Source of the DNA: a virus
Length of the DNA: 39,223 bases
Direction: 5' to 3' (one strand)
IMG/VR virus record: IMGVR_UViG_3300035698_008897
Coordinates: 1-39,223 of that record
Shown here: positions 37,610-39,223 of the stretch, in pieces
Numbering within the stretch: the stretch's first letter is position 1
Layout of the letters: each line of letters opens with the position of its first letter
Notes under the pieces: generated by a model
Seen by the model: the letters and a program-made list of their open reading frames with translations, nothing else
Databases searched by the model: none
Told to the model about the DNA's origin: nothing
Program-made: the position numbers and the translations under genes

Positions 37610-39223
37610 TATTCTCCCTTCATCTTTTTGTGTTCTTTTCCCAAAATCCCACTCACCTGGAAAAACCAGTTTTTTGTGAGAAACGATCTAGTCATAGAAT
37701 CCGCAGCCAGCTTTTCAAGCACCGCGTCCACATCAAGGCCTTTATACGAGTCCCGCCATTGCTTCACCTGTCTGAAAGTAACCGGCTTTTCATCGCCATC
37801 CACGTAGAACGTGTAAGCGTACTCATCGCCGGGTATGCTTCGCTCCGCATATTCCGCGTATTCCTGCTTAACCAAAAGCTCATACTCTTGATTTATCTTT
37901 TTGCGCTCCGCATATTGCACATATCGCCAGTCTGTCAGTTCGTCCAGTACCGACCCCCGGCCTGTGATCCTGAAATCTTTCTCCAGACCGTTCGGGTTTC
38001 TCTCAGCGATGTAATTCTTTGCCTTGACGATCTTACAGGAAGAGTATCCCTTGATAACTTCTGATATGGAAAGGTACAGTCTCGGCTTTTCCAGGCTGAT
38101 TTCACCGGACCTGCCAAAGTCGGACCCGGATTTCTTTTGAAGTGCTATCACGCATATCCCGTCATTCAGCGTTTCATGAATCTGGCGAATCCATTCCCCA
38201 ACCAAATAGAACTGGTCATGTACTTCCATGAAGTCGATAATGTTCAACCCGTCAGGGTCAATGACCTGGTGAAAGTTCCCGGTTCTCTCGATGGCTTTCA
38301 TTCCACCCCACTTGCTCATGGGTTCCTTGAACGCCTTTACCCTGTTGTGCAATTCTTGCCGTCCCATTTCGGATGAGAAATATTGGAGGGTGTCATATTG
38401 GCCGGTAGGCGATAATGTTTTGAGATTGTCTTTTGCGATATTCAGAAGGATGGATGTCTTACCAGCATTTGATTCCCCGGCCACTACAAGGATGTTCCCC
38501 GGCATGGTTTGGATTCCGAGGTCTTCAAGACCGAGTGGTAAAGAAATGATACTATCCATTTCTTTATTACTACCCATATCTATAAAGGATATATAAGAAC
38601 AAACACTTTCTTTATAAGAGAAGACCGCTCGTTGTCCACTGACCCTCTCAATCAGCCCCTCATCGCAAAAACGCTGTAAATACGTGCTAACGTTCTTTTT
38701 TTCTTGACGATTTCGGATATCAAGGTCGTTGTAGACATCTTGTATCCGAAACTGCCTTTTATCCATTAATATCCAAGACTTGAGCACTCCTTTCAGCCCA
38801 TCACCAGAGTTCCGCTGTTCTCGCGGTTTGTCCACTGGTTGTCCACTGTTGTCCACTGAAACAGGGGTTTTGTCCACTGCCTGTCCACTAATGTCCGCTG
38901 GTGTCCGCTGTTGTCCACCTTGTCCTTCCTGTCCGCTTTGTCTGTTTTGTCCACTGCTTTCTTCATGATCAAACTCATTTCGAGGATAACGAGGTTCATT
39001 CATCCCTGACTTGATACCGCTTGCTATTGTCTTTTCAATCTCTGACGCTTTCAGCCCCAATCCGGATGCCGCACCCCTTAAAGAATTCTCAACAGACGAA
39101 ATATCAAGTTGACCGCCAGCGATTAATTGCCCCAAACTGTAAGCGGATCGGTTTAGCTGGTCGTTCCTTCCGCCTTCCCCGGCACATGACAGGGCTACGA
39201 TTTCATTTGCCAGCGCCTTTTGA
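37609..39223 (-). CDS. Replicative primase/helicase-like ATPase, N-terminus beyond window
   Basis: The frame is open to base 39223, so the TTG at 39135 is internal and the protein is cut by the right edge. The first visible residues [20 protein letters not shown] and [17 protein letters not shown] are the linker found after primase-polymerase domains in phage fusion proteins. Next come a Gln/Gly/Ser-rich linker encoded by the repeat array, a winged helix ([15 protein letters not shown] and [17 protein letters not shown], about 38760-38610), then a RecA/DnaB-like ATPase: Walker [10 protein letters not shown] near 38453-38479, [26 protein letters not shown], and [17 protein letters not shown]. 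Role: opens and copies the origin region. It leads the arm, with SSB directly after. Confidence 0.8.
38829..38956. repeat. Iteron-like array of TGTCCRCTG inside the helicase gene
   Basis: About twelve units of a 9-bp word TGTCCRCTG at 38829, 38840, 38850, 38871, 38882, 38892, 38902, 38912, 38921, 38930, 38939 and 38948, first 10-11 bases apart and then 9. The last units are more degenerate. A further copy lies at 38633. The spacing shifts the reading frame between units, so the repeats are conserved as DNA and not as a protein repeat. It resembles the iterons inside the lambda O gene. Confidence 0.65.

Follow-up and report, generated by a model that had tools for sequence, protein, structure and literature searches.

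The window, meaning the whole stretch of DNA that was analysed, is a linear virus contig of 39,223 bases. One end is occupied by a putative initiator gene whose product consists, in order, of a helical segment, a linker carrying an array of repeated words, a winged helix and a helicase domain (Table 1). The protein was 43% identical to a 'DNA primase' of vir555 over the whole stretch present. The nearest annotated relatives were vir555 (a virus assigned to Methanomicrobiales) and MetMV of Methanosarcina, and the window terminase was too distant for a host to be named.

Table 1. Features of the putative initiator gene and of the repeated words that it carries.
Feature	Position in window	Strand	Basis or location
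Putative initiator gene, 5' end lost at contig end; 537 residues present	37609..39222	-	open frame
Helical segment, residues about 1-80	38983..39222	-	alignment with vir555, where it follows the Prim-Pol domain
Array of ten CAGYGGACA words (sense strand)	38829..38956	-	linker of initiator gene
Array word starts	38829, 38840, 38850, 38871, 38882, 38892, 38902, 38912, 38930, 38948	-	
Winged-helix domain, residues about 143-203	38614..38796	-	AlphaFold2: three helices and two wing strands
Recognition helix, residues about 172-188	38659..38709	-	holds equivalents of word-covarying columns
Outlying exact copy of array word	38633..38641	-	wing codons
AT-rich stretch, 22% GC	38558..38617	-	among lowest-GC 60-base stretches of window
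RecA/DnaB-type ATPase (helicase) domain	37918..38538	-	DnaB_C and PHROG 243/19 matches; conserved motifs in relatives
Walker A	about 38455-38478	-	within ATPase domain

Pfam and PHROGs placed the C-terminal half of the protein near DnaB/RecA-type helicases. Pfam matches were to DnaB_C/AAA_25, and to Prim-Pol in relatives; the DnaB_C match of the ATPase domain was weak (E=1e-4, below the curated cut-off). An N-terminal Prim-Pol domain was found in both vir555 and MetMV, and by comparison with these the N-terminal primase-polymerase of the window protein would fall beyond the contig end. The gene had been called a 'replicative helicase' in an initial annotation made from the letters of the window; the family was found to be one of primase-polymerase/helicases, not of helicases alone, which carry their own primase and helicase (Pfam and PHROG matches). 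The helical segment may be PriCT-like, judged by position only, and gave no match in the Pfam search.

The winged helix was modelled with AlphaFold2 at a pLDDT of about 92-98 over the helices and mostly above 90 across the domain, with the array linker directly preceding it. It weakly resembled MecI/BlaI-type proteins by profile (BlaI, E=0.009; MecI, E=0.03-0.07) and by Foldseek (MecI, E about 0.1-0.3, TM about 0.5). Residues K176, S179, T180 and Q183 are the main positions of the recognition helix and the equivalents of the word-covarying columns described below. The AT-rich stretch after the winged helix is a possible strand-opening site in the window virus. Such a stretch was present in the window and vir555 and was not conserved across the family; with a family median percentile of 0.54, a conserved AT-rich opening site was rejected as a general feature.

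Array copies were scored against TGTCCRCTG (CAGYGGACA on the sense strand): seven were exact, two had one mismatch and one had two. Steps between successive starts were 11, 10, 21, 11, 10, 10, 10, 18 and 18, and copies occupied all three reading frames. Steps of 9-11 bp or their multiples are the helical spacing of direct repeats, here in or beside an initiator gene. A further copy at 38809 is doubtful (two mismatches). Apart from the array and the outlying copy in the wing codons, the window held no exact nonamers, and a chain scan of the whole window gave no other chain of at least four copies. The chain of ten copies was matched by 0 of 60 codon shuffles of the window gene, and 300 synonymous recodings of the linker peptide reached a maximum of six copies against the real ten. 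The iteron-like array that the initial annotation had placed inside the helicase gene is thus real beyond both nulls. Its place in the linker just before the winged helix, its passage through all frames and the outlying copy in the wing were borne out as well, the count of 'about twelve' units was reduced to ten, and of the 9-11 base steps described, those of 10 and 11 were found and that of 9 appeared only as the two steps of 18.

Relatives were gathered as 78 viral-contig loci and 18 prokaryote-genome loci. In the viral-contig search the window protein alone gave no matches, so the query was its alignment with vir555 and MetMV; because most relatives escaped a strict Walker A pattern, a looser one was applied. 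The prokaryote-genome loci were all metagenome-assembled (many from sulfate reducers), and their hosts are therefore uncertain. Several loci were fragments, and the 94 family genes included near-identical members (e.g., L079/L100/MetMV, L018/L089 and L023-L025). Placement classes and words were read by custom scripts; words were registered by judgement, and in held-out genomes automatically.

Comparable arrays, with 7-8 bp words at 9-11 bp steps, were found in the family. By one strict statistic (at least four copies in at least two frames), 42 of the 94 family genes scored, against 30 of 5,640 codon-shuffled genes; in about half of the relatives no array was detected by these methods. Arrays of at least five copies numbered 37 in the loci, 35 of them within the initiator gene or within about 70 bp, and none occurred in the shuffles. 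The array lay just outside the gene in five genomes (downstream in L063 and L066; upstream in L071, L082 and L098) and just downstream in L157, which came from the held-out scan. Placements across the family comprised the linker, the winged-helix codons, sites further upstream in the gene and sites just outside it. Measured from Walker A, copies fell into two boxes (about -560 to -500 and -281 to -219), the second inside the winged-helix codons, and the same word was often common to both; the alternative was an enlarged linker array at about -477 to -316 (window, vir555 and Desulfovibrio-type relatives). The words recorded comprised 25 distinct 8-mers, of which the majority ended in ACA when read on the sense strand. 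Words differed from lineage to lineage, and copy number in the linker varied among relatives. Linkers lacking the words, which the initial annotation had named in advance as a point against its proposal, were indeed frequent; the reason is that the array shifts its place, whether into the winged-helix codons, to a more upstream part of the gene or to a position just beyond the gene.

In vir555 the array consisted of CAGTTGAA words in the same gene (L002 4245-4363), and a whole-genome chain scan gave no second array. MetMV carried CGACCACA-type words in the same gene at L003 2682-2745 and 2957-3046. A lone inverted copy of CAGTTGAA was found at L002 4538-4548, about the same place as the outlier in the window's wing; elsewhere in the vir555 genome, CAGTTGAA occurred solely within the array. 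The window and vir555 accordingly had one lone extra word each in the wing codons, and the two were oppositely oriented when each was compared with its own array. One gene in L044 carried two arrays, at 4714-4766 and 4906-4976, built from one word in opposite orientations (TGACGACA and CTGTCGTC). In the MetMV record (MK170447; L103 and L104) about 8.7 kb is duplicated at the ends (1-8696 = 59130-67826), so that the record has two copies of the initiator gene with its array, and the recorded length of 67,826 is probably too great. A 14-copy AGCCGCAT-type repeat in a hypothetical gene of MetMV (L104 7380-7576) had steps of 9 and 21, which are multiples of three, and is therefore probably a protein repeat.

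Within a genome, the words at corresponding winged-helix sites change together. In a gene set picked for having arrays, words at three homologous in-frame sites differed at 1.1 of 9 positions within a genome and at 4.1 between genomes at the same site. For 72 deduplicated genes not picked for arrays, the corresponding values were 5.01 within a genome and 6.31 when permuted (minimum of 5,000, 5.99), and near-identical word triplets were present in 17 genomes, with 0.23% expected. Out-of-frame copies also occurred between the three in-frame sites, and together with the concerted change this is not the behaviour of a protein repeat. Selection or slippage on the DNA word had been proposed from the window alone; selection is supported by the several frames, the synonymous-recoding null and the concerted change at homologous sites.

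Word distance was compared with distance in the recognition helix and wing by a partial Mantel test in which helicase distance was controlled. Words as first written gave 0.405 (p<1/2000), and the helicase control gave 0.04 (p=0.32). The value was 0.526 with words set to one orientation, 0.532 for arrays outside the winged-helix codons only and 0.406 for pairs with different array placement. Because the word orientation of L057 and L066 was corrected, and L098 re-registered, after the helices had been seen, the uncorrected 0.405 is the fair figure. Covarying columns outside the array codons were 30, 33, 34, 36 and 37 (third helix) and 51/52 (wing); helicase columns averaged z 0.30. SK went with TGTCGTC(A) across placements (winged helix in L006, linker in L044, further upstream in L098), and the window (AGTGGACA, STYLQR) and vir555 (AGTTGAAA, STYLGR) were alike over the greater part of both helix and word.

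A fresh scan yielded 30 unused genomes as a held-out set, of which 15 had arrays (two being duplicates) and 14, all viral, were kept. Detection was automatic, training words were left uncorrected, and the distance allowed shifts and both strands equally for all predictors; the five predictor columns sit outside codons covered by array copies. Mean word distance (n=14) was 1.86 to the nearest training genome by five recognition-helix residues, 3.39 to the nearest by helicase and 3.05 to a random one. In 12 of the 14 genomes the helix outperformed the helicase as a predictor, in two they were equal and in none was the helix worse (permutation p<1/2000 for helix, 0.89 for helicase). Across the sequences compared, the array word covaries with the recognition helix and wing of the protein encoded by the gene that carries it, and shows no such relation to that protein's helicase domain. 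Covariation and held-out prediction together strongly support the prediction that the array is bound by the winged helix of the protein itself, which the initial annotation had raised as a possibility.

The array very probably represents iterons for the protein's own winged helix and acts as the replication origin of the virus inside the initiator gene. Array words would be binding sites for the winged helix encoded by the same gene, and several protomers would bind side by side about one helical turn (9-11 bp) apart. The bound protomers would load the attached helicase and primase (the latter seen in relatives with a complete gene), and the loaded enzymes would start synthesis at the array, with strand opening perhaps at 38558-38617. 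We infer physical binding, cooperative loading and strand opening from the sequences; origin function is best inferred from the domains and from the precedents of lambda O and N15 RepA. A second gene annotated as a replication initiation protein in vir555 counts against it, as do the roughly half of relatives in which these methods detected no array and the poor conservation of the AT-rich stretch. Cumulative GC skew, which had been suggested as a check, gave no support: in neither vir555 nor the window did the skew turn at the array, and it was rejected as an origin marker since it follows the gene strand.

The covariation and the held-out evidence of binding would fit equally well if the winged helix bound the array as an operator, such that the protein repressed its own gene (by a roadblock within the gene or at its promoter) and the origin lay elsewhere. 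The weak likeness of the winged helix to MecI/BlaI-type repressors is in keeping with such a role, as are the arrays just upstream of the gene in L071, L082 and L098. Most arrays, however, are mid-gene and some are just downstream (L063, L066 and L157), which are poor places for a promoter operator, and the putative binder is in its own right a helicase, to which complete relatives add a primase; self-repression is considered unlikely. Iteron arrays serve copy control in plasmids, and covariation cannot separate that role from origin function, so that the array might be a partition, incompatibility or copy-control site for the same protein and not a replication start; the window and vir555 (whole, with one gene copy) nevertheless have one array each, with no separate same-word origin seen in them, and such a role is judged very improbable. 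It is hardly credible that the array arose as a protein-level or slippage repeat within a disordered linker and has no DNA function: the linker is of low complexity (SGQ and VDK/VDN motifs) and relatives differ in copy number, but the words run through several frames beyond every synonymous recoding, form arrays within the folded winged helix as well, change in concert and track the recognition helix, held-out genomes included.

An origin within the initiator gene has precedents. Lambda O has its binding sites inside its own gene, and iteron number varies between relatives (PMC7466680); the window family is alike in having repeated words inside the initiator gene at variable copy number. Lambda O is an unrelated protein without primase or helicase, whereas the window family has a helicase and its relatives a primase; no O-family match was obtained in the Pfam search of the window protein and its relatives, which are not members of that family. 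Lambda iterons are longer, partly palindromic and outside the codons of the DNA-binding domain, whereas the words of the window family are 7-8 bp long, direct and, in some relatives, inside those codons. The ori of phage N15 is cited as lying within repA (PMC4165912), and by the description given there N15 RepA would be like the proposed window system, with an origin in the gene of a multifunctional primase-helicase initiator. Pfam matches of the window protein and its relatives do not suggest homology to N15 RepA or P4 alpha. N15 RepA is related to P4 alpha, and we know of no concerted word switching in it.

Similar domains are combined elsewhere. In pRN1 ORF904 and phage BIP-1, an archaeo-eukaryotic-type primase, a helicase and a winged helix form one protein, in which the helicase is of the SF3 type and the winged helix is C-terminal; the candidate origin is a stem-loop located downstream of the gene, and no origin iterons were found (PMC4234260); the window family differs in its RecA/DnaB-type helicase, internal winged helix and iterons. 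In the PrimPol-PV1 supergroup, Prim-Pol is joined to PriCT, ATPase and a winged helix proposed to recognise origins; in the families described the winged helix is C-terminal, and no iterons are described (PMC5862659). The window protein departs from the PrimQH arrangement of that supergroup (winged helix C-terminal to the ATPase) in that its winged helix precedes Walker A. An N-terminal Prim-Pol domain is present in vir555 and MetMV, the 5' part of the window gene being cut off.

Initiator helicases SaPI Rep and SCCmec Cch2 bind short direct repeats next to or near their genes (PMC7581432); those repeats are intergenic and downstream of the gene, and the helicases belong to other families, whereas the window array is coding. 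In PLE RepA and ICP1 Odn, the DNA-binding domain covaries with the iterons, as in the window family, and specificities switch repeatedly under antagonist pressure (PMC8263062). There, in contrast to the window, the origin is noncoding, the iterons are semi-palindromic and about 30 bp long, and the domain is RepA_N. Operators of the MecI/BlaI-related CopY group contain TACANNTGTA (PMC7253601), whose apparent resemblance to the ACA end of the family words is taken as a lead only. The literature on the same arrangement in primase-helicases yielded no more than the precedents named here; coverage of subscription journals was thin, and earlier reports could be missed.

On balance, and by a small margin of confidence, we favour a wider pattern in a wide group of archaeal and bacterial viruses, in which the origin would lie in or beside the codons of the initiator's DNA-binding domain, and word and helix would be physically linked, would have switched together repeatedly and would follow a readable recognition code (e.g., TGTCCACA with SE.LRR, TGTCTACA with SI.LKR and TGTCGTCA with SK.LER). 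Escape from origin-exploiting competitors or satellites may drive the word switching, which is speculation. Replication origins are unknown for most uncultivated tailed viruses, including those of methanogens. Here a likely origin is legible in the initiator gene, and five residues allow an estimate of its word, so that dozens of natural pairs offer a direct test of how initiator and origin co-evolve. The codons of a DNA-binding domain can double as the sites that it binds; the specificity of the protein and that of the DNA then have to evolve through one set of nucleotides.

Other features of the window were recorded. A 342-aa plus-strand frame at 30501-31529, where GC skew is reversed (30-32 kb), gave no Pfam or PHROG match. 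An RNA ligase gene (PHROG 548) is present at 32748-33788, in a region shared with an SSB (37190-37609) and a RusA-like resolvase (35548-35967). A perfect 15-base tandem repeat of 2.4 copies lies at 7744-7779, within a 2371-aa frame at 2167-9282.
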